Position numbers and translations under genes: made by a program. 64,000 nt of DNA from Scardovia inopinata JCM 12537 (GTDB lineage Bacteria > Actinomycetota > Actinomycetes > Actinomycetales > Bifidobacteriaceae): contig NZ_AP012334.1 of the NCBI RefSeq assembly GCF_001042695.1, positions 62,001 to 126,000 on the forward strand, in the 5' to 3' direction. The notes beneath the pieces were generated by a model. The model was not told the DNA's origin, made no database searches, and saw only the letters and a program-made list of their open reading frames with translations. Positions 8,229 to 34,617 of this stretch are shown in pieces. Every line of letters starts with the position of its first letter. The first letter of the stretch is position 1.

Positions 8229-9509
8229 ATGAAGAATGGCACCCTTAAAACGAAAAAATTCATCAGTCGACTCATTGCGCTTGCAGCTGTTGTATCGCTG
8301 ACTGGCTCCTTGCTTGGTGCCTGCGGAACCTCTAGCTCAGGCACGGTCACCCTTGATTTTTTCCAGTTTAAGGCAGAAGCTGCTTCCTGGTTTACGGCCA
8401 AGGCCCGTGAATTTGAGAAGCTGCATACGAACATTAAAATTAATGTCAACAACACAGCCAACGCGCAGACAGATATGCGCACCCGCCTGGTTAAGGGCCG
8501 TGTTCCCGATGTCATCACCCTCAATGGAGACATCTCTTACGGTATGTTTGCGGCTTCCGGTGTCTACCACAATTGGGAGGGAGACCCCATTACCAAGAAG
8601 CTTAACAAAGGTATGCTTCAAATTTCCCGCGATTTAGTGCAAACTACCGATCCTTCCCAGAAGAAGCTGTATGCTTTGCCTTATGCGGGCAATGCTTCCG
8701 GTTACATTATCAATGTTGATTTATGGAAGAAAGCTGGTCTCAATCCAGCCAAACCTCCTCAGACCTGGAATGATTTTATTGCCGCACTGAAAAAAATCAA
8801 AGCTGCAGGAATCACTCCGGTAGAAGCGTCCTGGGCCGATACCTGGACTCTGCAGGCACCCTTGGCTTCATTAAATGGCACCCTTGTTCCCCTCAGCAAA
8901 TATACCGATCTGAAAAAGGGGACCACTAATTTTGCCAAGCTTTGGACTGAGACAGCCAAGAAGGAATACACCCTCTTCACCTACGCTCAGTCTAACAAGG
9001 GAGTGACCTACCAGCAGGCTACTCAGGATTTTGCTAATGGCAGGGCTGCCATTCTTCCCCTGGGAACCTATGCTATTCCGCAGATCACCTCTGTCAACAA
9101 GAAGATCAAGCTGCGCTTTGCCAATATGCCGGCCAACAACCAGGCTTCTGCCCAAAAGCTGACTGCCGGCGATGACGTGGTTCTGACCATGGGGGCCACC
9201 ACCAAGCACGAAAAAGAAGCCCGTATGTTCATTGAGTTCCTTTTGGAAAAGAAGAACGTAATGGAATATGCCAAAGCTCAGTATGCCTTCACGCCCCTGA
9301 AAGAAACTCAGGCCGGCGGCAAAGAAATTGCCTCCGTTCTGCCCTTCTTCAAGTCCAATCGAATTGTTGATTTCTGTGATCATCAGATTCCCTCTTCTAT
9401 TAACCTCGCTGGCTTCCTTCAGACTCTGGTTTCCACCGGAAATTCCCAGCGATTCACCGATTCCATGCAGAAGGAATGGAATAAGGTCCAGGCCAGGAAC
9501 TTCAACTAG
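8229..9509 (+). CDS. ABC transporter sugar-binding lipoprotein
   Basis: 426 residues. The ATG at 8229 is chosen because AAAGGAG lies seven bases ahead; an upstream start at 8211 has none. The N-terminus is a lipoprotein signal with lipobox LLGAC, so the mature protein is tethered outside the membrane. The rest is a family 1 extracellular solute-binding protein: [47 protein letters not shown], and [19 protein letters not shown]. It delivers sugars to the two permeases that follow, with an 11-base gap to the first. An alpha-galactoside or alpha-glucoside ligand is inferred from neighbours. Confidence 0.93.
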
Positions 9510-9520
9510 GAGGTAACGTT

Positions 9521-10435
9521 ATGTCATCTGCATCATCTGCGCGCGCAGTCCCCAGGGCTGCTGCCCCCGGGAAGAAATTGAAGTTTGATCGTACCTACTA
9601 CTGGATGACTGTTCCGGCAGCGATTATCTTTGCTTTCTTCCTCTATGTTCCCTTCATTCAGGGCATTTTGTACTCTTTTACAAATTCCCAAGGTTTCGGA
9701 AAGTATAAGTGGATTGGTCTGAGCAATTACAAGGCCCTCTTCCAGGATGACCGGGTGTGGCATGCGTATGGCTTTTCCATCTTCATTGCCCTTGTCTGCT
9801 CCATCCTCATCAACCTGATTGCCATGTTCCTGGCGGTTCTTCTTAATTCACGGATCGCTTTTAAGAATGGTTTCAGGGCTATTTTCTTCATCCCCTACAC
9901 CTTAGCCGTCCTGGTTATTGGTTATGTGTTCAAGTACATCTTCATGGTTCCCCTGCCTGCCCTGGGCCAGGCTCTCCATATTGACTGGCTGAGTACATCT
10001 ATGATTACCAATGCCCAGCTTGCCTGGATTCCCATTGTCTTCCTGACTGTCTGGCAGTCGGTTGCTTACAACACTCTCCTTTATTTGGCTGGCCTTCAAA
10101 CTATTGATCAGGAGATCTATGAGGCAGCTGAGATTGATGGAGCCAATGCCTGGCAAGGATTCTGGCAGATCACTTTTCCCCTCCTGGGACCCTTCGTGAC
10201 CATCAATGCTGTGCTGTCGCTCAAGAATACCCTTGGCGCCTTCGACCAGATTGTGGCCCTGACCGCCGGCGGTCCTGATTCCGCAACGGAAACGGTCTCC
10301 TATTTGATTTATAACAACGGTCTTACTGGCGGCGAATATGCCTATCAGACGGCGGATGCGGTTATCTACTTCATCCTTCTGGCAATAATCGCCTTCATCC
10401 AGTTGAAGTTCTTCTCGAACAGGGAGCAGATCTGA
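9521..10435 (+). CDS. Sugar ABC transporter permease, MalF/UgpA type
   Basis: 304 residues with six predicted membrane segments, the first at about 25-47 (MTVPAAIIFAFFLYVPF). The cytoplasmic EAA loop that contacts the ATPase reads EAAEIDGANAWQGFWQITFP. AGGAGG precedes the ATG at 9521. Its TGA overlaps by one base the ATG of the second permease, so the two are translationally coupled. No ATPase gene is present in the cluster; in bifidobacteria such transporters commonly share one MsmK-type ATPase coded elsewhere. Confidence 0.93.
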   Translation: MSSASSARAVPRAAAPGKKLKFDRTYYWMTVPAAIIFAFFLYVPFIQGILYSFTNSQGFGKYKWIGLSNYKALFQDDRVWHAYGFSIFIALVCSILINLIAMFLAVLLNSRIAFKNGFRAIFFIPYTLAVLVIGYVFKYIFMVPLPALGQALHIDWLSTSMITNAQLAWIPIVFLTVWQSVAYNTLLYLAGLQTIDQEIYEAAEIDGANAWQGFWQITFPLLGPFVTINAVLSLKNTLGAFDQIVALTAGGPDSATETVSYLIYNNGLTGGEYAYQTADAVIYFILLAIIAFIQLKFFSNREQI

Positions 10436-21849: not shown

Positions 21850-23496
21850 ATGGCAAAGAATATGAATCGCCAAAGCTACGATCAAGACAGTCAAGGCAAG
21901 CTGGCAAATCAGCAGCTCTCTTCTCAGAGTCACAGTTCAGGCGATGGCCAGTCTCACCCTCACAAGCAGCCTGATTCCTTGCATTCAGTCAAGGACCTGG
22001 ACCTGGATACCCATAACAGCCTGGAAAGAGGCCTCAGCAACCGTCATGTGCAGTTCATTGCCATAGGTGGAACCATTGGGACTGGCCTCTTTCTGGGATC
22101 CGGCAAGTCCATCGCCCTGACTGGGCCCTCTATCGTCCTGGTGTATATTGCTGTGGGCTTGATCATGTTTATTCTCATGCGAGCTATCGGTGAGATGATG
22201 TACCAGGATCCCAGCCAGCATACTTTCATAAATTTTATTACCCGCTATGTTGGTAGAGATTGGGGAGATTTCTGTCAATGGTCGTATTGGATTGTTCTTG
22301 TTCTGATCGGCATGACCGAATTAACGGCTGTTTCTCGTTATTTTGTTGAGTTTTTCAAAACCTACAATATAGATCTGACTGCCTGGAAATGGTTGATAGA
22401 AATCGGTTTCCTTGCAACTCTGGTCCTGGTGAATCTGATAGCTGTCAAATTTTTTGGAGAAGCAGAGTTTTGGTTCTCCATGATTAAGATAACCTTGATA
22501 ATAGGTATGATAGTTACTGCTATTGTTATGCTCATCGCCCATTATCACTATTCGGCGGTAACTATTCCCACAACCGGTTCTGTTATTAAATCCCCGGCGG
22601 GGCAGGTGACCTTTGCGAATATTTTCCGAGATTTTTCTTTGGCTCCCAACGGCTGGCGTAATCTGGTCATTGCCTTTCCCATGGTTTTCTTTGCCTATCA
22701 GCAGATTGAATTCGTGGGGGTAACAGTGTCGGAAACCAAAAACCCTCGACCGGTTCTGAAAAAGGCCACAAACCAGATTATTTACCGGATTCTGATTTTT
22801 TATGTTGGTGCTCTTATCGCCATCATGACTATTGTTCCCTGGCGTAATTTTGTGCCTGACAAGGCAGGAGAATTCGTTTCCCCCTTCATCATGGTCTTTA
22901 AATATGCAGGATTGGATTGGGCTGCTGCCCTTGTTTTCTTTGTGGTGATTACTGCAGCCAGTTCCTCTCTGAATTCTCTACTTTTCTCTGCCGGCCGTCA
23001 TCTTTACCAGGTGGCCAATGAGTCAGATCAAAATTCTTTCCTTCGCTTCTTCAGCCTGGAACAGGTTTCTTCGCATAAAGTCCCGGCCAGGGCCATAATC
23101 TTTTCAGCATTATTTATACTGATTTCTCCGGCTGTCAGTCTTTTCCCCGCAATAACCCAAGCCTTTACCTGGTTTTCCAGCGCGTCCAGCTCAGTAATCA
23201 TCGTAATTTATACTTTGACCATCGTTGCTCACTGGAAGTACCGGCAGAGCAAGGACTTCAGCCCAGATGGCTTCCTCCTTCCTGCCTATAAGGTTTTAGA
23301 TTCCTTGGCAATCATTTTTTTCGCAGCGGTCTACCTGACCCTCTTTTTGGCTCCCGATACTGTCTGGCTGGCCATTGCGGGTCTGATCTGGCTAGTATTT
23401 TTTAGCACCTGGTGCCATATCCATGATCGTCGCAGGAAAGCCAGGGGAGAAAGCAGCCGACCTATCGGTGAAAAATTGGAAAAACTCGAATTCTAG
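21850..23496 (+). CDS. Amino-acid permease, APC superfamily (AAT type)
   Basis: 548 residues. A Gln/Ser/His-rich cytoplasmic tail of about 55 residues is followed by 12 membrane segments. The family hallmark is at the first segment: RHVQFIAIGGTIGTGLFLGSG, then IMRAIGEMMY, and after segment five AYQQIEFVGVTVSETKNP. It imports an amino acid by proton symport; the substrate cannot be named. A G-rich GGGGGTGGTGG stretch precedes the ATG at 21850. The last 105 bases overlap the end of the convergent apbE-type gene. Confidence 0.92.
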   Translation: MAKNMNRQSYDQDSQGKLANQQLSSQSHSSGDGQSHPHKQPDSLHSVKDLDLDTHNSLERGLSNRHVQFIAIGGTIGTGLFLGSGKSIALTGPSIVLVYIAVGLIMFILMRAIGEMMYQDPSQHTFINFITRYVGRDWGDFCQWSYWIVLVLIGMTELTAVSRYFVEFFKTYNIDLTAWKWLIEIGFLATLVLVNLIAVKFFGEAEFWFSMIKITLIIGMIVTAIVMLIAHYHYSAVTIPTTGSVIKSPAGQVTFANIFRDFSLAPNGWRNLVIAFPMVFFAYQQIEFVGVTVSETKNPRPVLKKATNQIIYRILIFYVGALIAIMTIVPWRNFVPDKAGEFVSPFIMVFKYAGLDWAAALVFFVVITAASSSLNSLLFSAGRHLYQVANESDQNSFLRFFSLEQVSSHKVPARAIIFSALFILISPAVSLFPAITQAFTWFSSASSSVIIVIYTLTIVAHWKYRQSKDFSPDGFLLPAYKVLDSLAIIFFAAVYLTLFLAPDTVWLAIAGLIWLVFFSTWCHIHDRRRKARGESSRPIGEKLEKLEF

Positions 23497-24585
23497 ATGG
23501 GGTAGTTTTGCATAAAGCTTCTGTGGATTACACAGAAATAAAGCAGTTGCCACCCCATCTGCCCAGGCGGTAGAAAATTGCTGATTTTCAACCAAGGCCC
23601 AGGTCGCGATGACGTTGTCTGCCGCAGCTGCATTGATAGCATTGACAATGTGATTCATGCGGATAACCGATTGCTTTTGATCTTCCACCAGCCAGTGACG
23701 GCGGCTGGTGGAAGAGGCGCACAGGGAGCAGCCGAATTCATGCGAGCGATCGACGGTCACGATTCCTAAAGCCTTCTTGCTATCTTCCGGATCTTCCAGA
23801 GCAACTTGGTTTGCTGCCGCTTGGCTTTCCCCGTCCGGGCAGAAGGCCCTATTGGCCGGCAGAGTCTTTGAAAAAGCTTTCGCTGCCCCAGCGTGGGAGA
23901 AATATAAATCACCGCCGGCATTAATGGTGAAAGATCCACAGTTTGTTGACAGGAGTTTGTCGGCTATTACATCGACCAGGAATCCCTTGCCCACAGCACC
24001 GAAATCCACGGTAACCGGCTGACTGACAGTCAGAGTGCTTCCTGGCCCAGCTTGTCGCAGAGACTCCCACTGTAGACGATGAATTTTTTTGCGCTTTTTT
24101 CTTTCCTTGGGGTTTCTTCCCTCAGGGTTTCTTTCTCCAGGAGTTTTTCCCCTGGTACTTCCTTCTCCACTTAAGTCTGCATAAATTTTTATAGGTTCTT
24201 CTGCTTTTATTAATTCAAAAGACTGAGAATAACCCAGACGGACTAGGTCTTCGCCAACGCATGGGTCGAAAGCACCATCAGTTGCTGTATAAAGATCATC
24301 ACATATGGTGAATAGGGGACTGAGATAATCAGGAAAAGTAATTATTCCCCCATTCCGATCAAGAAAACCCGGGTCAGAAAGGTGGGAAACTAGTGACTGA
24401 GGGAGAAAACGGGAAAGAACCCCTTCAAAAGAATGAATAAAATTTTTTATAGAAGTTTGATTCTCTTGGCTGATTTCACGGCTGCTGCTAATAATTATTC
24501 CTGTCCCTAGAGCTCCGGGAATGGGGAAAATATAAGGTTCGCCCGTTGCGGTCAGGGGTGAAAAAGGATCTGTTGGCGCTGTCAT
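23392..24585 (-). CDS. apbE: FAD:protein FMN transferase, ApbE family
   Basis: 397 residues, slightly longer than the usual 310-350. Enzymes of this family move FMN from FAD to a Ser or Thr of an FMN_bind domain. Seen: an N-terminal GTGIIISSS and FSRFLP-like segment, FDPCVGEDLVRLGY, VDFGAVGKGFLVDVIADKL, and TINAGGDLYFS; the late ADGVATALFL matches the Mg/FAD-binding end. There is no signal peptide, so a cytoplasmic or twin-start form is possible. A Lys/Arg insert occurs at about 145-165. The last 35 codons overlap the permease gene antisense, an unusual extension. A likely target, the FMN_bind fusion at 31712, lies 7 kb away. Confidence 0.9.
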   Translation of the reverse strand: MTAPTDPFSPLTATGEPYIFPIPGALGTGIIISSSREISQENQTSIKNFIHSFEGVLSRFLPQSLVSHLSDPGFLDRNGGIITFPDYLSPLFTICDDLYTATDGAFDPCVGEDLVRLGYSQSFELIKAEEPIKIYADLSGEGSTRGKTPGERNPEGRNPKERKKRKKIHRLQWESLRQAGPGSTLTVSQPVTVDFGAVGKGFLVDVIADKLLSTNCGSFTINAGGDLYFSHAGAAKAFSKTLPANRAFCPDGESQAAANQVALEDPEDSKKALGIVTVDRSHEFGCSLCASSTSRRHWLVEDQKQSVIRMNHIVNAINAAAADNVIATWALVENQQFSTAWADGVATALFLCNPQKLYAKLPHLEFEFFQFFTDRSAAFSPGFPATIMDMAPGAKKY

Positions 24586-24740
24586 CGTTACTTATTATAA
24601 AACTAGTCATTATAAAACGGATAAAACAGCAGTGAAAAAGAAGTGAGGTGCTCCCGGAATAGAAAATTTTTCAAAAAAGTCTTTACAAATAGATTTTTAT
24701 GTTTTATTTTGGAGTAAGCGGGTTCAACGTTAGGAGATTC

Positions 24741-26624
24741 GTGAGGAGCATAAGACACAGGTCCCCCCAGAAACAGCCAGGCAAAGGCAGTACATATGGT
24801 GTAAATTGGCTACCGGCAGCAGTAAAGCTGGCTGCAGCCTGCGCGATAGTTGTTGTTCTGCTTGTACTGTCTGTTGTCTCTTCAGCCCTCTGGCAGGCAG
24901 TTGCTTTCGCCTCTAGTTCCTCAGCTTCTTCTGCATATAACTATTCTTCCTGGAAAGCGGTATCAAAAAAGATATCAGAGGATTTGTCTGCTGCTGACAA
25001 AGCGTATAAAAATGCAGACACTGCAACTGCTGCAGCCTTGGCTAATCGTGCTTACAATACCGGGTATGTAGCGACTAATATGATTCGGGCCGTCCGCGAC
25101 CATGAAGGTCAGACAAAAAGCAGTCGTCAAACGGCAGTCTTTGCAGATATCTCATCCATCACCTATCAAGCAGCCACCAAAACGAGGGAGGACTCTCTTC
25201 ACCAAAAAATTTCCTCCTTGACATCAGATCTGGACCTTTCGGCCAGGAAACTGGACGCTTCTTCGCTGGGCTCTCCCCGTGCATATGGCCGCAGATTGCA
25301 GGATCAAACTACAAAAGAGCGCCGGAAGCTTGATGCTGCTATGGTACACAAAAATCAGGGGAAGGGGAGCCGAACATGGACGTCAATAGCCAAGGAAATG
25401 ACCATCCTTCTTGATCGGGCGTACAAGGCGGCAGTTTCGCAGAATAATGCGGAAAAGGGAGCTGCTCTGGTCAATGAAGCCTATTACAAATACTATGAAA
25501 AACTGGGCTTTGAAAAAACGGTCATGAGCGCTATCTCTGGTTCCCGAGTTTCGGCTGTGGAATATCAGTTCAAGCAAGCTCGTAAAGACATGATGGCTGG
25601 CAAGAGTCAGACAGTCATTAATAATGATATTAACCAGCTTAAAAGCATGCTGCTTACGGATGCCGGGATTCTCGACGGCACAGGCTCGGAGGGCAGCAGT
25701 GGTGCAGCGGCCCATATTAATCCCCTGACCAGCTTTTTCAGCTCAGCCTTTGGCCAAGCCTTTATTATTCTTATCAGGGAAGGGCTGGAAGCCATTCTGG
25801 TCGTGGCAGCCATTATTGCTTACCTGGTGAAAGCTGGCTATAAAAACAAACTTGCTTTTATTTATGCAGGAGTATTCCTGGGGTTGGCGGCTTCTGGTCT
25901 GATGGCTGTAATACTCAATCTTTTCTATGGGGCCAGTGGCTCCAACCAGGAAATGATCGAAGGGTTTACCGCCTTGATTGCCATGGTTATGCTCCTGTTT
26001 ACCAGCAATTGGATGCTTAATAAATCGTCAGTTGCAGGCTGGAATTCTTATATAAAAAATCAGACCGAACGCAGCATTTCCCATGGAAGTGTTGTCTCCC
26101 TGGCCTCGCTATCATTTCTGGCGGTTTTCAGGGAGGGCGCTGAAACGGTGCTCTTCTATCAGGCTCTGATTGGGATGGTATCCGATAATGATTACAGAGC
26201 TTTATATGGTGGGGCCAGCCTGGCCGCGGTCATTCTGATTATCGTCTTCCTCCTGATCCGTTTCACGTCGGTAAAAATCCCCATCCGTCCCTTCTTCGCT
26301 ATTACCAGCGGACTCATGTCTATCATGGTCGTGATTTTTGCAGGTTCTGGTCTACACGAGCTTATTGAAGCGGACATTATTGATGGTTCCTATCACAATT
26401 CTTGGATGACCAATGATTTCCTGGGGATTTATCCCTATACAGAGACTGTGGTTTTCCAGATATTGATAGCCGTTGTTGTGGTTTTCCTTACTGTGCTTTC
26501 TGTGACTAAACAGCTTAAACAAGGTCGGGAAAATAGTGAGAGTCAAACTGTTCAGATGGATTCTGCTGCTTTTGCTGATCAGGGAGGTCAGGCGGAAGCG
26601 CAGGGCGAAGGAAAGAAGCTATGA
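24741..26624 (+). CDS. FTR1-family iron permease with large extracellular N-terminal domain
   Basis: 627 residues from the GTG at 24741, which has TAGGAG five bases ahead; the ATG at 24699 (641 residues) has no ribosome site. An N-terminal anchor is followed by about 270 mainly helical, Lys/Ala-rich residues outside the membrane, then seven membrane segments. The two iron-binding signatures are present: REGLE at R346 (IIREGLEAILVVAA) and REGAE at R464 (FREGAETVLFYQ). FTR1 permeases move ferric iron through the membrane after oxidation or with a partner redox protein. It begins an apparent operon of iron and redox genes reaching to 33103. Confidence 0.93.
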   Translation: MRSIRHRSPQKQPGKGSTYGVNWLPAAVKLAAACAIVVVLLVLSVVSSALWQAVAFASSSSASSAYNYSSWKAVSKKISEDLSAADKAYKNADTATAAALANRAYNTGYVATNMIRAVRDHEGQTKSSRQTAVFADISSITYQAATKTREDSLHQKISSLTSDLDLSARKLDASSLGSPRAYGRRLQDQTTKERRKLDAAMVHKNQGKGSRTWTSIAKEMTILLDRAYKAAVSQNNAEKGAALVNEAYYKYYEKLGFEKTVMSAISGSRVSAVEYQFKQARKDMMAGKSQTVINNDINQLKSMLLTDAGILDGTGSEGSSGAAAHINPLTSFFSSAFGQAFIILIREGLEAILVVAAIIAYLVKAGYKNKLAFIYAGVFLGLAASGLMAVILNLFYGASGSNQEMIEGFTALIAMVMLLFTSNWMLNKSSVAGWNSYIKNQTERSISHGSVVSLASLSFLAVFREGAETVLFYQALIGMVSDNDYRALYGGASLAAVILIIVFLLIRFTSVKIPIRPFFAITSGLMSIMVVIFAGSGLHELIEADIIDGSYHNSWMTNDFLGIYPYTETVVFQILIAVVVVFLTVLSVTKQLKQGRENSESQTVQMDSAAFADQGGQAEAQGEGKKL

Positions 26625-26708: not shown

Positions 26709-27383
26709 ATGGAAACACCTATGAAAGAAGATAAGAAAAACCGACTGGTTTCGGGGCTAAAGAAAACTTTGACTGCTGCAACGTCTCTGATCTGTGCTGC
26801 TGTCCTCACTGTTACTGTGGCCGCCTGTGGAGTATCGCAGGGAGGGAACAGGGCATCCGGATCTGCCGGAAACAGCTCGACACTTTCTTCCAGCCAGGCA
26901 GGGGGGACTAAAGGATTTGAAGAATATCCCATTGGTCATGATCAGGAAATCGGACCCTTGAATGTTGCCATGGTCTATTTTCAGCCGGTAGATATGGAGC
27001 CTGCTGGGACTGGTTTGTCTGCTGCTGAATCCAGCTTCCATCTGGAGGCAGATATACACGCCCTTGCTAACAACAAGCTGGGTTATTCCAAGGGAGAATA
27101 TGTCCCTGATCTAACCGTGCAGTATGCCATTGTGGACCGGGCAAGCGGGAAAACTGCCGCGTCGGGTACCTTTATGCAGATGAATGCAGCTGATGGTCCT
27201 CACTATGGCGGCAATGTGAAGCTAGACAAAGCAGGTCAGTACACACTTACCCTTACTATTCACTCCCCTGCAGAAAAGGGGTGGGCTTTGCATGTAGACA
27301 AAGAGACAGGTGTCACCGGCCGTTTTTGGACGACTCCTCTTAAGGTCAGCTTTAATTGGAACTATACCCCTCACAAGTGGTAA
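26709..27383 (+). CDS. P19-type iron-transport lipoprotein
   Basis: 224 residues; lipobox VAAC at C40 (or C36 from the in-frame ATG at 26721), then a Ser/Gly-rich linker. The mature domain matches the P19/Tp34 family: VAMVYFQPVDMEP, FHLEADIHALANNKLGY, GPHYGGNVKL and SFNWNYTPHKW. The methionine, acidic and histidine residues are those that bind Cu/Fe in P19 proteins. These proteins hand metal to FTR1-type permeases outside the cell membrane, in line with its position just after the permease gene. No strong ribosome site precedes either ATG. Confidence 0.92.
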   Translation: METPMKEDKKNRLVSGLKKTLTAATSLICAAVLTVTVAACGVSQGGNRASGSAGNSSTLSSSQAGGTKGFEEYPIGHDQEIGPLNVAMVYFQPVDMEPAGTGLSAAESSFHLEADIHALANNKLGYSKGEYVPDLTVQYAIVDRASGKTAASGTFMQMNAADGPHYGGNVKLDKAGQYTLTLTIHSPAEKGWALHVDKETGVTGRFWTTPLKVSFNWNYTPHKW

Positions 27384-27497: not shown

Positions 27498-28919
27498 GTG
27501 TTAAAACAATTCATCACCGCATTGTCAGGAACTCTGACCCCTGCGCTCTTATATATGCTTCTGTCTCTGGCCCTGCCTTCAAGAAAAGCACAGTCAGGTA
27601 AGGTCACGGGTAAGGTCAGTCGTATCTGCCGTCTTTTTGGCCTGATTCTTGGCCTTGCGGTGGCTCTTGTCTTTGCGCTGCTGCGCTCGATGGCAGTAGT
27701 CAGTCAACAAACCCCGATCTTGCGCCCGGCCCTGTGGGTCAATATTATTTCCCTGACCCTGACAGTTCTTGGATTAATCTTCACTTTCCTGAGTGGCATG
27801 GGGAAGAAGGATACAAAAAAGAATGGAACGATAGATCAGACAGGAAAAGCGGTAGAGCTAGACAAGGGGGAGAAGGCAGAGAATAGAGGAAATATAGAAA
27901 AGGCAAGAGAGCAAAGGCTCGTTTCACGTGAAACAAACCCAGGTCTTGTTCTTTTTACTAATCTTGCCGGTGCTATTGCTATAGCGTCGACGATCGTCTG
28001 CTTTATTCCCGATGTGATTATTCAGTTGGCAAATTTTGTGGAAACAGGCGAATCTGCTTTTACCTCTGCCATGTTGACCCGGGCCGTAGGCTTTCTCTTG
28101 GGTGTTGGTGCTGCCATGACAGTTGCGGCCATTTTCAGGACTTTGAAGACCAGCATATCCCCGGTGCTCCTTATGATCACGTCACTTCTCTTTCTGCTCC
28201 TGGTCCTGGTTCAACAGGTGACTGCCCTGACTCAGATTTTGGTTAATACAGCTGTTCTGGAACTTACCGATGCTGAATTTTCCCTCCTGGTAAGTCTGAT
28301 CAACCATAATAACAGCCTGATTATTGCTCAGACGGCTGTTTTTCTTCTACCGGCCGCGGCTGCTCTGATTGCTGGCATGAAAATGGGGCCAGAGGTTTCT
28401 GCCGCTTCCTCCGGGGCCCGTCAGCGATCCCTGCGCAAGTTCCGCCGCCATGCCTATGCGGCCACGGTTTGGTCTCTACTTGCTGTTCTTTTTGTCAGTC
28501 TAAGTCTGACCTCTGGAGTGGCCTTGACCACCCAGGAGGTGACCCTGTCTGCTCCCGAGAAGTATCAGTTGACAAAAACAACAGCTACCATTCCGTACTC
28601 TCAGTTGGCCGATGGACATCTTCACCGCTTCCAGTACAAGGCTAAAGACGGGACTGTTATGAGATTTATTATTATCAAAAAGAGCGGAGGCTCCTATGGA
28701 GTAGGCCTGGATGCCTGCGAAAATTGCGGAGATGCCGGTTATTACGAGAAGGATGGAAAAATCGTCTGCAAAAAGTGCGATGTAGCCATTAACCTGGCAA
28801 CTATTGGCTTTAAGGGAGGATGCAATCCCATCCCCCTGCCTTACCAGTCCTCAGGAGGAAAAATTACCATAAAAACCGCCGATCTGGACGCCCTATCCGG
28901 CCATTTTGCCATCTCATAA
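27498..28919 (+). CDS. DUF2318 membrane protein with Cys4 metal or Fe-S site
   Basis: 473 residues from a GTG at 27498, with GAGGA seven bases ahead. Seven or eight membrane segments are interrupted by a Lys/Glu-rich loop at about 95-140. The C-terminal domain outside the membrane is of DUF2318 type: ACENCGDAGYYEKDGKIVC followed by KKCDVAINLATIGFKGGCNP. The two CxxC pairs probably hold a metal or Fe-S centre. The family is repeatedly found next to P19 and FTR1 genes and is thought to take part in redox steps of iron uptake; this role is inference here. Confidence 0.9.
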   Translation: MLKQFITALSGTLTPALLYMLLSLALPSRKAQSGKVTGKVSRICRLFGLILGLAVALVFALLRSMAVVSQQTPILRPALWVNIISLTLTVLGLIFTFLSGMGKKDTKKNGTIDQTGKAVELDKGEKAENRGNIEKAREQRLVSRETNPGLVLFTNLAGAIAIASTIVCFIPDVIIQLANFVETGESAFTSAMLTRAVGFLLGVGAAMTVAAIFRTLKTSISPVLLMITSLLFLLLVLVQQVTALTQILVNTAVLELTDAEFSLLVSLINHNNSLIIAQTAVFLLPAAAALIAGMKMGPEVSAASSGARQRSLRKFRRHAYAATVWSLLAVLFVSLSLTSGVALTTQEVTLSAPEKYQLTKTTATIPYSQLADGHLHRFQYKAKDGTVMRFIIIKKSGGSYGVGLDACENCGDAGYYEKDGKIVCKKCDVAINLATIGFKGGCNPIPLPYQSSGGKITIKTADLDALSGHFAIS

Positions 28920-28934
28920 GGCCAGGTGATTATC

Positions 28935-30368
28935 ATGTTTTTCCTGCGATTGATTGGTAAGTCAGTGACCCGTCAGGCTCGGCGCCGGCTTCTGATTTCT
29001 TTGACTGTAGCCCTAGCGGCAGCAGTCAGCATAGCTATGCTGGGAATTGTTTATGATGTGGGTGACAAGCTGACCAATGAGCTGTCTGCATATGGATCCA
29101 ACATTACAGTCCGTCCCAAATCAGATGCTCTGATTTCAGAGCTTTACGGATCCAGCTCCTCCAATACTCCCAGCTCATCAACTGTAGACCCTTCTTCTTT
29201 TATCAAAGAGTCTAATCTTCAGAAAATCAAAACTATCTTCTGGGCTTACAACATCACCAATTTTGCCCCTCAACTCAATGTGCGGCTGACTGTGCAGAAT
29301 CACAAAACCGGCATCAAAGAAAGACGGATTCCTGTTGTCGGAACCTGGTTCAACAAGCAAGTGCATGTGTCAACAGGGGAAACCACGCTTGTGGGAGTGC
29401 AAAAAATGCGGCCCTGGTGGAAAATCCAGGGCTCCTGGCCTAAAGATTCTCAGTCTGAAGCCATGGTTGGCTCTGCTTTGGCAGCTAAACTCGGGATTTC
29501 AGTAGGGGATAGGGTCACAATTTCCAGTCAGAAAAAACTCTCAGGGAGAGTGGGCAAATCAGAATCTACAAGATCTACAGGATCCACAGAATCTACAGGA
29601 CTTACAGGATCTCATGACAGCGGCTCTGATTCGGTCAACGGCAGTTCGACTACTTCCCATAACTTGAAAGTTGTGGGGATTTACAGCTCACATGATGATG
29701 ACGATCAGGCTCTGTATACATCCACGTCCTGCGCCCAGGCTGTTTCTGGTCTGCAAGATAAGGTGGATTATGTAGAGGTTAAGGCTCTGACAACTCCGGA
29801 AAACGATCTGGCCCGCAAAGCGGCAAAGAATCCCGACGCCCTCTCTCAGGAGGAATGGGAGACCTGGTATTGCACGGCTTATCCCTCTTCTATTGCCTAC
29901 CAGATTCAGGAAGTGTTACCTAACGCCGTGGCTAAACAGGTCCGGCAGGTTGCGGCTTTGGAAGGCAATGTTTTGGCCAAAACCCGGTCTGTTATGATTG
30001 TGATGACCGCTCTGACGCTTATTGCAGCCACTATTGCTGTGGCTAACCTCATGTCCGCCGCTTTGGGGGAGCGTGCTTCGCAGCTGGCCCTTCTCAAGGC
30101 TTTAGGAGCCAGGAACAGTCAGATCTTCCGACTGATTATTTCTGAGACAGCTCTGATAGCCGCCTTGGGGGCCATGACCGGGTCTCTTCTGGGGGTAGGT
30201 TTGGCTCAGATTGTCAGCAGAGTTGTTTTTCACTCATCCATTACCATGAGGCCCATGGTTTTTGTCCTGGTTTTTGTTTTGTTGACTCTGACAGTCCTCG
30301 CTGCATCTGTCTCTTCTATCAGACAGATTCTTAAACTCCAACCAGCTCAAGTTCTGCATGGACGGTAA
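28935..30368 (+). CDS. FtsX/MacB-like ABC permease, first of a pair
   Basis: 477 residues. The ATG at 28935 has AGGTG six bases ahead; an in-frame GTG at 28926 is less likely. One membrane segment near the N-terminus, an extracellular domain of about 300 residues, then three segments at the C-terminus, as in MacB/FtsX permeases. MSAALGERASQLALLKALGA is the conserved cytoplasmic loop that meets the ATPase. A Ser/Thr/Gly insert at about residues 205-225 is coded by near-repeats of TCTACAGGA. It probably forms a heterodimer with the next gene and works with the ATPase domain at 31712. The cargo is unknown. Confidence 0.88.
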   Translation: MFFLRLIGKSVTRQARRRLLISLTVALAAAVSIAMLGIVYDVGDKLTNELSAYGSNITVRPKSDALISELYGSSSSNTPSSSTVDPSSFIKESNLQKIKTIFWAYNITNFAPQLNVRLTVQNHKTGIKERRIPVVGTWFNKQVHVSTGETTLVGVQKMRPWWKIQGSWPKDSQSEAMVGSALAAKLGISVGDRVTISSQKKLSGRVGKSESTRSTGSTESTGLTGSHDSGSDSVNGSSTTSHNLKVVGIYSSHDDDDQALYTSTSCAQAVSGLQDKVDYVEVKALTTPENDLARKAAKNPDALSQEEWETWYCTAYPSSIAYQIQEVLPNAVAKQVRQVAALEGNVLAKTRSVMIVMTALTLIAATIAVANLMSAALGERASQLALLKALGARNSQIFRLIISETALIAALGAMTGSLLGVGLAQIVSRVVFHSSITMRPMVFVLVFVLLTLTVLAASVSSIRQILKLQPAQVLHGR

Positions 30369-30378
30369 GGGGAAAGGC

Positions 30379-31638
30379 ATGAGAAAATCAGATAAGAAAG
30401 AGGACAAGGCTATGGCTGAGTCTGCGAATCACTTCAGACAGAAGAATCCTGCCCTGGCAGAGGCTGGGTTGCGATCTCAGCCTGCTGCAAACATCCGCAT
30501 GTTTTGGATTATGCTGTCCAGCGCTATTTTCCGCCGGAAATCCAGGGCATTGATGGCCATTATTGCATCCTTGGTTGGGTCAGCCACCCTTTTCTGCTTA
30601 ATCTCAGTGTGTTTGGTGGTTCCCCGCCAGATGACGGAAGAAATGCAGTCATACGGGGCTAATCTGATAGTAAAGTCCAACGGATCCGGAAAAACTAGGT
30701 CAGGTATCAGCTCGGCTCTCATTAACCACACGACCTCTATGCTGACTGCCCACGGGGATAGTGCTCAATGGGCATCATACCGTTATGAAAATGTACGCAT
30801 TCATTCGGCTCCTTACCAGGTTGCCGGTATAAACGTCGCCCAGACCCGGAAACTTAATCGTTTTTGGAATATTCAGGGTTCCTGGCCAGTCAAGGAAAAT
30901 CAAATCCTGATCGGCACCGATCTGGCTCAGGCTTTGAACCTTTCTGTTGGCAACAGTATAACTATTGGTTACAGGGCATCTGGCATCCTCGATACCTCAG
31001 GCAGATCCTTCAGCGTTGCTGGCATTGTGGATACGGGAGGTGCTGAAGATTCCATGATTTACATGACAAATCAGGCAGTCGACCGCCTGACCGGCGTCAA
31101 GCGCGGTGCCGATGTTGTTGAATATGCTTCTTCAGCTCAGGGGGCCGATCTGGACAGGTTAGTCCAGTCCATCAACACCATGACTGTTATGAGCGTAACC
31201 GCACAGAAAGTTGCGAAAATCTCCACAGCCAATGCTTCCATTATTACTATGCTGACCACTCTCTTTTGGATTATTTCGCTGGTAATCGTGGCTCTGACTA
31301 TGGTGGGGGTTTCTACCACTATGACTTCGATTGTTGCCCAGCGCCGCAGCGAAATTGGTTTGCGAAAGGCCTTGGGTGCTTCGTCCAGGGGTATAGCCAT
31401 CGAGTTTTTTGCTGAATCCGCTGTGTATGGATTTTTCGGGGGAATTATTGGCCTGGGTTTGGGTTATGCGGTTTCTCAGGCTCTGACCAGGGGAGTTTTT
31501 CAGAGATCCCTGTCTTTTAACCCTCTTCTGGCTGTAGCGTGTTTAATCATCAGTCTTGTCGTTGCTGTCTTCGCCTCCATTGGCCCAGTCAGGCAGGCGG
31601 TGACTATAGATCCGGCAGTGGTACTCAGTGATGAATAA
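30379..31638 (+). CDS. FtsX/MacB-like ABC permease, second of a pair
   Basis: 419 residues from the ATG at 30379, chosen because AAGGGGAAAGG lies just ahead; an ATG at 30358 would overlap the previous gene by 11 bases. Same plan as its partner: a segment at about 45-70, an extracellular domain of about 200 residues with FWNIQGSWPVKENQILIG (compare WWKIQGSWPKDSQSEAMVG in the partner), and three C-terminal segments. The ATPase-contact loop reads VAQRRSEIGLRKALGAS. Located in the iron operon, 73 bases before the ATPase-FMN_bind gene. Confidence 0.88.
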   Translation: MRKSDKKEDKAMAESANHFRQKNPALAEAGLRSQPAANIRMFWIMLSSAIFRRKSRALMAIIASLVGSATLFCLISVCLVVPRQMTEEMQSYGANLIVKSNGSGKTRSGISSALINHTTSMLTAHGDSAQWASYRYENVRIHSAPYQVAGINVAQTRKLNRFWNIQGSWPVKENQILIGTDLAQALNLSVGNSITIGYRASGILDTSGRSFSVAGIVDTGGAEDSMIYMTNQAVDRLTGVKRGADVVEYASSAQGADLDRLVQSINTMTVMSVTAQKVAKISTANASIITMLTTLFWIISLVIVALTMVGVSTTMTSIVAQRRSEIGLRKALGASSRGIAIEFFAESAVYGFFGGIIGLGLGYAVSQALTRGVFQRSLSFNPLLAVACLIISLVVAVFASIGPVRQAVTIDPAVVLSDE

Positions 31639-31711: not shown

Positions 31712-33103
31712 ATGACCGACAATTCGCATAATTCCATGCTTTTACAGTTAGACCATATTTCTAAAATATACGGAGATCTCCATGCTCTGGACGATTTGAG
31801 TTTGGAAGTTTCCCGCGGCGAGTGGTTGGCGGTCGTTGGCTCTTCAGGTTCGGGGAAAACTACCCTGATGAATATTATTGGCTGTCTCGACCAAGCTTCC
31901 CGTGGATCAGTAATTCTTGACGGACAGAGTTTAGATGATCTTAATCAGTCTCAGCTGGCTGATGTCCGCAAAAATGTCATTGGCTTAGTTTTCCAAAAGT
32001 TCTATCTGGTTCCCCATCTGACCGCTGTGGAAAATGTGATGGTTGCCCAGTACTACCACTCAGTGGTAGATGAGAGGCAGGCCCTGGATGCCCTGGCTAA
32101 GGTTGGTCTTGCAGATCGAGCCCATCATCTTCCCAAAGAACTGTCTGGTGGGGAGCAACAGCGAGTTTGCATTGCCCGGGCCTTAATCAACGATCCAGAG
32201 CTGATTCTTGCTGATGAACCAACAGGCAACCTCGATGAGGCAAATGAGAAAATTGTTCTCCAGCTTTTCCGCGAGCTCAACGAGCAGGGGACAACTATTA
32301 TTGTAGTCACTCATGATGCCCTGGTGGCCTCCTGTGCCCAGAGGGAGATTATGCTTAATCATGGCCAGCTGGTCGGAGAGAAATGGAATGATGATCAGGC
32401 CCATCAGCGTTTTCTGGATGCGGGTGGACACCCAGCCCTCCACGGATCAGATGAAGTCTCTGCTCCGGCTCTTAATCCCACCAAGGCGTCTAAAGTTAAT
32501 CCTCTTTCCTCAGAAAGTGTTCAGCCTCTTAAATCCAGGAAGGACCTTCCGAAAAAGAAGAATCTGACTCGGAGGATTGCCGCAGGGGCCTTGAGCCTTG
32601 TCGCCACTGTTGGCCTCGCTGGTTGTGGTACCAGCAGTGCTGTCCCCGCTGATGATGAATATGCCGGAACCAGCGAGTCTTCGTCGTCGCCTTCCTCATC
32701 TGATTCTTCCTCTGCGTCATCCGGTTCTTCTGGCCGGACGTCCAAGCCCACTGCTTCAGCAGGAAACAGGCAAAAACTCGGTCCAGACACGGGAACCTAT
32801 GCAAATGGCCGTTTTACCTCAATCGCCACTTACGGTCCTGTCGGTGAGGACAAAATTGATGTGGCTATCACCGTTTCTGGTCAAAAAGTTTCTCAGGTAA
32901 CAGTTACCCCTCATCCGGCAACGCCGATTTCCAAAAAATATCAGACTGGTTTTGTCAAGGAAATCAAGTCTGCCATCGTAGGGAAACCTTTGAAAAACCT
33001 GAAGGTGAGCAAGGTTGCCGGAGCAAGCTGGACTTCCGATGCTTTCAATAAAGCATTGGAAGTTGTTCGCCAGGAAGCTTCCACGGCGGCTGGGAGGCAT
33101 TAA
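31712..33103 (+). CDS. Fusion protein: ABC ATPase plus lipoprotein-like anchor plus FMN_bind domain
   Basis: 463 residues in one unbroken frame, AGGAGCGG ahead of the ATG. Residues 8-225 are a complete LolD/MacB-type ATPase: Walker [10 protein letters not shown], signature LSGGEQQRV, Walker [10 protein letters not shown] linker to about 285 leads to basic residues and a hydrophobic run ending in LAGCG (C305), like a lipobox or a membrane anchor. After a Ser-rich stretch comes an FMN_bind domain (about 345-460) with the flavin-attachment motif AGAS439-W-T441-S442, where ApbE-type enzymes attach FMN. The parts are normally separate proteins on opposite membrane faces. It probably energises the two preceding permeases and carries electrons outside. 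Confidence 0.88.
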
Positions 33104-34617
33104 GCCTTGACAGGATGGACCAGGAAGGATCCAATCAGGAGGGCAACAACCCAGCAGGGGCCTAAAATTGCGGCAACCCGGTAACTGGGGTAAATCCACA
33201 TGAGCGCATAAAGTCCGGCCATACACAGGAGAATCAGCCAGGGAGTAACTCGGGCTGCGGGCAAGGGAAAGGTCAGCTTATCTTTACCTGAAGCTGTCTG
33301 CGCTCCGATCTTTTGCAAATCTGCTTCCTCTTTCTTTAGTCTCCTGCGGAACATCATGTGTGTAATGGCAATGAGAGACCAGTTCAGCAGGGCAGCAAAG
33401 GTAGCAATAGACATAAGATAATTAAAGGCAAAAGAAGGCCAGAGAAATACAACAATTACAGCAATAACGGTGATAGCTGCTGAGGTCAGGACTCCGGCAA
33501 CTGGCACTCCGCGTTTGCTCAGTTTACCCAAATAATGCGGCGCATTCCCTTGCTTTGCCAGGGAATAGAGCATTCGGGAGTTGGAGTAAAGACCTGAGTT
33601 GTAGACGCTGATGACTGCAGTCAGACAGACAAAATTGAGGATCCCGGCTGCAATATGAATGCCGGCAGAATCAAAGATCTGTACAAAGGGGCTGACAACG
33701 ACTCCGTGAGAGTTGGCTTTCCCAATCTGATTCCAGGGGACGACGGCCATAATGATGGCCAGAGCGCCAACGTAGAAAAGAAGAATCCTCCCGACAATCT
33801 GATTGGTTGCCTTGGGAATAGTGGTCTGCGGGTTTTCTGTTTCTGCTGCCGTGATCCCAATGAGCTCGGTCCCGCCAAAACTGAACATAACTACCACTAA
33901 AGCCATCAAGAGGCCTGTGAATTGGCCGTTCTCGCCACTACTTATCAGTCCGTGGGGGAGGAAACCTCCAGGGGAGTGTACCAGGTTTCCGAAGCTGGGA
34001 ATAACGCCATTAGTCTGGGGGACAGCGAAAATAATCAGGGTCAGGCCAACAATAATCATGGCTATGACAGCTACTATTTTGATGATGGCAAACCAGAATT
34101 CGAATTCTCCAAAAGCCTTGACTCCCAAGAGGTTAGCGCCGGTGATCAGGACCATGAAAACTGCTGCGCTGACCCAGGCGGGGATCTGCGGGAACCAATA
34201 CTGGACAAAAGTTCCGACCACGCTCAGCTCTACCATCGAGACCAGAATGTAGTTTGCCCAGTAATTCCACCCAGAGATGAAGCCAGCCCGGGGATTCCAG
34301 TAGCGGCTGGCGTAGTAGCTGAAGGCACCGGCTTTCGGATCATAGGTACTCATTTCGCCCAGGGCCCGCATAATCAGGAAAATGATGAATCCACCAACCA
34401 GGTAGGCAAGGAGGATGGACGGACCGGCCAGTTGTATGGACTCAGCCGATCCGTAGAAGAGGCCTGTCCCTATGGCTCCGCCCAGGGCAATCAGCTGAAT
34501 GTGACGGTTCTTCAGGTCGGTATGCAGGTGCCGGCTCTCCTGCATTGGCAAGATGGTAGACTGCTTGGTGGCAGCCTCTGCTTTTTCTTCTGGGTCTTGT
34601 CTTTCCGTATCTTCCAC
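33100..34617 (-). CDS. Amino-acid permease, APC superfamily
   Basis: 505 residues, 12 membrane segments, full length. Motifs: RHIQLIALGGAIGTGLFYGSA, IMRALGEMSTYDP, and FGGTELIGITAAETENP. The FSYYASRYWNPRAGFISGWNYW stretch (cut here to the family level) is close to the D-serine/alanine/glycine and proline-type permeases. The substrate is not fixed by sequence. Its stop overlaps the stop of the convergent FMN_bind fusion gene by three bases, so the two transcripts run into each other unless a terminator lies within the genes. It is distinct from the permease at 21850 in its tail and loops. Confidence 0.92.
   Translation of the reverse strand: MEDTERQDPEEKAEAATKQSTILPMQESRHLHTDLKNRHIQLIALGGAIGTGLFYGSAESIQLAGPSILLAYLVGGFIIFLIMRALGEMSTYDPKAGAFSYYASRYWNPRAGFISGWNYWANYILVSMVELSVVGTFVQYWFPQIPAWVSAAVFMVLITGANLLGVKAFGEFEFWFAIIKIVAVIAMIIVGLTLIIFAVPQTNGVIPSFGNLVHSPGGFLPHGLISSGENGQFTGLLMALVVVMFSFGGTELIGITAAETENPQTTIPKATNQIVGRILLFYVGALAIIMAVVPWNQIGKANSHGVVVSPFVQIFDSAGIHIAAGILNFVCLTAVISVYNSGLYSNSRMLYSLAKQGNAPHYLGKLSKRGVPVAGVLTSAAITVIAVIVVFLWPSFAFNYLMSIATFAALLNWSLIAITHMMFRRRLKKEEADLQKIGAQTASGKDKLTFPLPAARVTPWLILLCMAGLYALMWIYPSYRVAAILGPCWVVALLIGSFLVHPVKA

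Follow-up and report, generated by a model that had tools for sequence, protein, structure and literature searches.

A sifD-sifE fusion in an iron-uptake locus of Scardovia inopinata places an ABC ATPase and a flavin-binding lipoprotein in one reading frame

Can a cytosolic ATPase and a flavin-binding domain that belongs on the other side of the membrane be encoded as one polypeptide, and would that polypeptide stay whole? The question is raised by an open reading frame in the window, a stretch of 64,000 nucleotides from the Scardovia inopinata JCM 12537 genome. From an ATG preceded by an SD-like AGGAG, the frame runs for 463 codons with zero internal stops, and its product has a calculated mass of 49.1 kDa, in line with the ~48 kDa given in the original prediction, which had described the ORF as an ATPase joined without a break to an FMN_bind domain. 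Both domains are recovered with Pfam, ABC_tran at residues 26-171 (E 1.4e-34) and FMN_bind (PF04205) at residues 380-450 (25.1 bits, against a gathering cut-off of 22). The ATPase motifs are likewise in place, with the Walker A sequence GSSGSGKT starting at residue 43, the signature LSGGEQQR at 144, and LILADEP at 164, while the C-terminal part carries LAGCG at residue 302 and AGASWT at 436. Between the halves, a tail of ~60 residues leads into a lipoprotein-type signal and then a Ser-rich linker. The features of the ORF are as follows.

31712..33103, + strand: sifD-sifE fusion ORF, 463 aa (frame, Pfam, comparison of relatives)
31712..32416, + strand: SifD part, LolD/MacB-type ABC ATPase, residues 1-235 (Pfam, motifs, PDB matches)
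32537..32544, + strand: SD-like AGGAAGGA, possible relict ribosome-binding site of a once-separate sifE (sequence)
32549..32551, + strand: CCG codon (Pro280) where S. wiggsiae has the sifE ATG (comparison with S. wiggsiae)
32576..32626, + strand: internal lipoprotein-type signal, residues 289-305, lipobox LAG-C ending at Cys305 (motif, hydrophobicity)
32771..33100, + strand: SifE part, FMN_bind domain, residues 354-463 (Pfam, predicted structure)
33026..33028, + strand: Ser439, last residue of the 7-mer SKVAGAS, predicted flavin acceptor (motif comparison)

The best PDB matches of the ATPase half include LolD (3e-54) and MacB (4e-54); the LolD chains among the listed matches are 218-241 residues long and, unlike the fusion, have no room for an extra domain. 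For the FMN half, the closest PDB sequence match is 8p2a (E 0.042), and the top Foldseek matches include the FMN domains 8p2a (TMt 0.77) and 8p2b, none of which reaches E 0.001, with unrelated proteins close behind. AlphaFold predicted residues 361-460 of this half with block-mean pLDDT values of 83-98. In the full-chain model the ABC half was poorly predicted from a thin alignment (mean pLDDT 55.7), and the model was therefore not used for contacts; a fold search with it returned ABC matches again.

The fusion ORF closes an array of genes encoding FTR1, P19, an FtrD/DUF2318 protein, two FtsX-type permeases, the ATPase, and the FMN-binding lipoprotein, with a divergent apbE gene on the far side of the FTR1 gene:

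23392..24585, - strand: ApbE flavin transferase, divergent from FTR1, without a recognisable export signal, the sole PF02424 match in the genome (profile search)
24699..26624, + strand: FTR1 iron permease, BfeU-like (Pfam)
26709..27383, + strand: P19/Iron_transport protein, BfeO-like by position (Pfam)
27498..28919, + strand: FtrD-like (DUF2318) membrane protein, SifA-like by position (Pfam)
28926..30368, + strand: FtsX-like permease 1, MacB_PCD, SifB-like (Pfam)
30358..31638, + strand: FtsX-like permease 2, SifC-like (Pfam)

PF02687 is found in both permeases and MacB_PCD in the first only. This is the iron-uptake setting originally proposed, with ApbE as an addition to the neighbours listed there. 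At its other end, the fusion ORF overlaps a convergent amino-acid permease gene (33100-34617, - strand) by 4 bases (33100-33103). Searches of the whole genome (1,797,862 bases, one contig) gave one ApbE, one FMN_bind match, which is the fusion ORF itself, one LspA, and one Lgt.

The array corresponds to known systems for iron uptake. In Bifidobacterium breve UCC2003, the published account describes bfeUO-sifABCDE as needed for growth in the presence of iron chelators, with the FTR1 permease BfeU, BfeO, the eight-span SifA, the FtsX permeases SifB and SifC, the ATPase SifD, and the FMN-binding SifE, termed a possible ferric iron reductase (PMC5449479); we matched the genes of S. inopinata to these by order and description only. 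Unlike in S. inopinata, SifD and SifE of B. breve are encoded by separate genes in that account. An apbE mutant from the screen that yielded the sif mutants also grew poorly under iron chelation (PMC5449479), and apbE (Bbr_1825), which adjoins the cluster in S. inopinata, is distant in B. breve from the cluster Bbr_0221-0227 by locus number. A survey of flavinylation counted 260 P19 clusters with an FMN-binding gene, suggesting redox help in iron uptake (PMC8238504); the S. inopinata locus shares the combination of P19, FTR1, and FMN-binding gene with these clusters, and the available text of the survey does not mention an FMN-binding gene fused to an ATPase. The fetMP-fetABCDEF system of Campylobacter jejuni needs fetA and fetBCD and is modelled as relaying reducing power to FetMP (PMC10783030). 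It resembles the present locus in FetA (DUF2318), the permeases FetB and FetC, the ATP-binding FetD, and the lipobox-bearing redox protein FetE, and differs in that thioredoxin-like FetE and FetF take the place of the FMN domain and the genes are separate (PMC10783030). The context of the 'integrated reductive iron-import machine' named in the original prediction holds, but its outline had already been published for bfeUO-sifABCDE, for the P19 clusters with an FMN-binding gene, and in the Campylobacter model.

Judged from gene order and homology, the ORF is a SifD-SifE fusion in a bfeUO-sifABCDE-type iron-uptake locus: the S. inopinata array is the one found in bfeUO-sifABCDE and Fet-type systems, and only the separation of sifD from sifE is missing. 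Because both halves have close orthologues, and relatives have the same gene order, the fusion goes beyond chance. In 12 of 12 larger regions the order is FTR1-P19-FtrD-FtsX-FtsX-ATPase-SifE, with sifD and sifE separate in 11. The iron-uptake system is known; the fusion is new, and its structural novelty is modest.

How widespread the fusion is was addressed by a search with the C-terminal part against 189 family genomes. Of these, 125 had a match, and 117 were counted as having SifE (E 3e-27 or better), the 8 genomes with weak matches (best E 5e-9 or weaker) not being counted. The 117 genomes contribute 119 loci, since second sifE copies in G123 (L136) and G073 (L137) were counted as loci and not as genomes; no ATPase with the usual tail precedes the second copy in G123, and the ATPase match found ahead of L136, with its 317-residue tail, is unlikely to be SifD. 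An ATPase match lies nearby in 118 loci, separate from sifE in 116 and fused to it in 2, which leaves no room for the fusion being common in the family. The fused genomes are S. inopinata and Pseudoscardovia suis, and 115 of the 117 are unfused. Absence of the fusion from every other genome, one of the refuting conditions named in the original prediction, therefore does not apply. The remaining locus, L131 (G052), has no ATPase match in its stretch and stands outside the 118, with G052 still among the 115 unfused genomes, and L127 has no readable lipobox; the 116 unfused loci therefore include L127 and omit L131 where separation is counted, and include L131 and omit L127 where signals and start codons are counted. 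Other candidates within the family did not hold up: the long frames in G030 (346 aa) and G014 (305 aa) prove to be separate genes whose frames overlap, the stretch in G091 (392 aa) contains unknown bases, and in G072 (listed at 543 aa, a length that was not reproduced) a stop codon parts sifD from sifE in both copies. At L043 of G072 (8313-9760) the two genes share a frame with the stop codon between them, an arrangement that resembles a stage close to fusion; L043 was omitted from A1 because of the stop within its stretch.

Wider scans covered the order, where 75 of 396 genomes had a match, and a phylum sample of 396 genomes, where among the matches listed S. inopinata alone matched the whole fusion profile. 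The only other listed frames above 400 aa in the order scan, in G244 (456 aa) and G491 (444 aa), come from loci without a SifD match. These scans scored up to 9 and 5 candidates per genome, respectively, and may therefore have missed rare fusions. In a search of plasmids, 0 of the best 5000 records cover 80% of the fusion protein in one place.

Relatives of both fused species are unfused, including P. radai and S. wiggsiae, and the fusion is present in one of the three Scardovia genomes searched. A tree built for 15 loci from 7 concatenated proteins unites the two Pseudoscardovia (support 100) and sets S. inopinata, S. wiggsiae, and G186, the latter two unfused, apart from the rest (support 100). 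With unfused relatives on each side, two independent fusion events are likely and make the simplest account. The linker of the P. suis fusion (L042, 7973-9451) contains the near-tandem repeat GDDAVGDDAVGDDAL, a possible source of a frame change.

The junction in S. inopinata still bears marks of two genes. In most loci the ATPase ends a few residues past a tail resembling DPTKAAKTGG, followed by SifE, and the fused ATPase retains the corresponding motif as NPTKASKV. The two S. wiggsiae genes overlap out of frame with each other, the reading frame of the ATPase stopping within the first sifE codons, and the distance from the tail motif to the lysines past the start is 61 nt versus 54 nt in S. 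inopinata, which brings the halves into one frame in the latter. The position of the S. wiggsiae ATG reads CCG in S. inopinata, with two bases changed, and AGGAAGGA persists just upstream at 32537. From 15 to 60 codons before Cys305, S. inopinata has zero ATG, GTG, or TTG codons; the same interval of the P. suis fusion has one ATG and two GTG codons, none preceded by an SD-like 4-mer. Ahead of SifE, 110 of the 116 unfused loci and neither of the 2 fused ones have a start codon preceded by an SD-like 4-mer; when control codons were counted over these stretches, the numbers were 38, 26, and 44 of 116 (with a stricter 4-mer set, 82 versus 23, 15, and 36). With no standard start for a separate sifE, translation of either fusion seems to rely on the start codon of the ATPase, although a non-standard start is possible.

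Such a start would be the basis of an alternative in which internal or non-canonical initiation, for example at CTG codon 285, yields a separate SifE from the same frame. CTG285 precedes the signal core, TTG294 is also in frame, and an SD-like site lies upstream; yet CTG285 sits 19 nt past that site, and initiation at TTG294 would leave 11 residues before the cysteine with zero positive charges. Spacing between an SD sequence and its start codon is usually shorter than 19 nt. We regard separate initiation as very unlikely.

The same SD-like sequence, just upstream of the former start, would fit a sequencing or assembly error that made the join, with the genes separate in the living strain. The join rests on one assembly, a search for a second sequence record of the species found none (near records may be omitted from that search), and had an indel occurred, sifE could start in one other frame, at an ATG (32451) or a GTG (32517). 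Against such an error, the frame runs open through the join, two bases of the former ATG are altered, neither the ATG at 32451 nor the GTG at 32517 is preceded by an SD-like 4-mer, and a second fusion is known in P. suis. An error is improbable on this evidence.

A further possibility is that the fusion is real but decaying, a recent allele that works poorly or is dead, as its presence in only one of three Scardovia genomes would allow. The ATPase motifs and A-G-A-S-W-T are nevertheless intact, and the ORF holds the genome's sole FMN_bind match. Between S. inopinata and S. wiggsiae, dN is 0.117 for the ABC half and 0.183 for the FMN half (dS was returned as -1, which we read as saturated); these low values suggest purifying selection on both halves, and we give decay hardly any weight.

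If a single precursor is made, its fate turns on the segment between the halves, which the original prediction rightly posed as either an anchor or a cleavage site. The segment has a charged n-region, a hydrophobic core, and a lipobox cysteine, as expected of a lipoprotein in a genome with Lgt and LspA, but it lies at residues 289-305 of 463 instead of at the N terminus. Over 19 residues its Kyte-Doolittle (KD) hydrophobicity is 1.68 and its uncharged run is 17 (2.01 and 19 in P. suis), whereas the 116 unfused SifE signals have a mean hydrophobicity of 1.85 (5-95% range 1.61-2.13) and a mean uncharged run of 18.6 (15-22). The LAGC lipobox is kept in both fusions. Since the lipobox is kept, the segment resembles an ordinary SifE signal, and both Lgt and LspA are present, we favour, by somewhat better than an even chance, lipidation of the precursor followed by its cleavage into SifD and SifE. 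FbcH, the Bradyrhizobium cytochrome b/c1 precursor, offers a parallel in which two proteins are made as one precursor and parted at an internal signal of the signal peptidase I type; it resembles the proposed SifD-SifE precursor in being split at an internal signal, and the proteins differ. A literature search found no precedent for cleavage of a lipoprotein signal behind ~290 cytosolic residues. Several points weigh against the favoured reading: the segment might just as well remain in the membrane as an anchor; over 19 residues its hydrophobicity is at the low end for signals of the family; the surviving SD-like site could also be explained by a very recent change or by an error; and the flavin motif departs from the published motif at two positions.

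In the competing reading, which we consider distinctly less probable, the signal is left uncut as an N-in/C-out anchor and each ATPase subunit permanently carries its own surface FMN domain. A cytosolic enzyme with a single membrane span and an outside domain is a known layout, as in PknB-type kinases, and this reading agrees with the presence of one ORF that has no standard start for a separate sifE and with a segment whose KD value over 19 residues is that of a borderline membrane span. However, a permanent anchor might be expected to bring a longer or more hydrophobic span or loss of the cysteine, and neither fusion has any of these, an argument that two cases can carry only weakly; Lgt and LspA are present, and the arrangement is absent from 115 of the 117 family genomes with SifE. 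The original prediction, in which one chain physically links ATP hydrolysis to flavin electron transfer, was thus overstated, with the lipobox, Lgt, and LspA pointing towards cleavage.

For the favoured reading, cleavage of the precursor, we envisage the following course. A single precursor would be translated from fused sifD-sifE, its ATPase would fold in the cytosol, and the old SifE signal, now internal, would send the C-terminal part across the membrane. Lgt and LspA would most likely lipidate and cut the chain between Gly304 and Cys305, giving a cytosolic ATPase with a short membrane tail and a surface flavin lipoprotein of ~16 kDa, which would feed electrons to iron handled by P19, FtrD, and FTR1. 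The frame, the domains, the gene order, the second fusion, the missing standard start of a separate sifE, and the retained lipobox are observed; export, cleavage, flavin attachment, and electron delivery are inferred. As for the ABC part, the ATPase half is nearest to LolD and MacB and has FtsX-type permease partners, as in the type VII complexes LolCDE, MacB, FtsEX, and YbbAP. Because LolD/MacB-type ATPases work with FtsX permeases, the ABC part may act on SifE, moving or activating this lipoprotein, instead of importing iron.

The published flavinylation 7-mer is given as D-x-x-[S/T]-G-A-[S/T], and a D-to-A change in it is reported to have had only minor effects (PMC12052999). The corresponding 7-mer of S. 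inopinata, S-K-V-A-G-A-S, keeps GAS and deviates at positions 1 and 4, so that the attachment motif of the original prediction stands in part, and the acceptor would be Ser439 and not the Thr of AGASWT. Among the 119 SifE loci, 95 have D at position 1, and all 119 have A at position 4 and S at position 7; A-G-A-S is present in 119 of 119, making Ala at position 4 a family-wide trait, unlike the published consensus.

ApbEs mostly appear to be secreted, with cytosolic ones also on record in the same source (PMC12052999). The S. inopinata ApbE has no visible signal peptide or lipobox, and its frame opens two codons before the ATG. A scan of 42 related loci found a recognisable ApbE core in 28, and in 27 of these, including S. 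inopinata, a 12-residue stretch with hydrophobicity >1.8 before the core is absent, the exception being L269; 6 of the 28, with just 11 codons ahead of the core, were scored as signal-less. The 14 that failed the core pattern were left unscored, and among them are the sif-linked L040, L254, and L255, leaderless by eye. Across the 189 genomes, both SifE and ApbE are found in 116, SifE only in 1, ApbE only in 9, and neither in 63, a count that ignores kinship. Another substrate for the S. inopinata ApbE was considered and set aside, the genome having no NqrB or RnfD match and no second FMN_bind, as was export of the folded flavoprotein by the Tat route, since the genome (96.9% complete) gave no match to TatC.

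A signal-less sole ApbE, no TatC, and the sole FMN_bind domain in the exported half lead us to propose, tentatively and as an unlikely rather than a leading possibility, that flavin is attached in the cytosol, with SifE flavinylated on the unfolded chain before or during Sec export. A seven-residue motif is reported to suffice for ApbE (PMC12052999), and SifE might therefore be modified while unfolded. The choice is among attachment before export, exit of ApbE by another route, and a different mode of flavin binding by SifE. The flavinylation literature that was searched, as available, yielded no treatment of a signal-less ApbE with an exported substrate. We judge the tether mechanism of the original prediction to be possible, though not the likeliest, and see more left to settle on the flavinylation side.

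In this locus, an iron-uptake system and a flavin electron carrier are linked. That precisely the ATPase has joined the flavin lipoprotein twice, apparently independently, suggests that the two are parts of one complex, a hint that is testable for the Sif/Fet system. Whether a lipoprotein signal still functions and is cleaved when it sits ~290 residues into a chain is a question for which the fusion provides a natural test. The ApbE, with no visible export signal, makes one ask on which side of the membrane flavin attachment takes place in these bacteria. Cytosolic attachment, if it occurs, would find its extreme form in the fusion: with the ATPase keeping it at the inner face, the chain would be a redox lipoprotein that crosses the membrane loaded with its cofactor.
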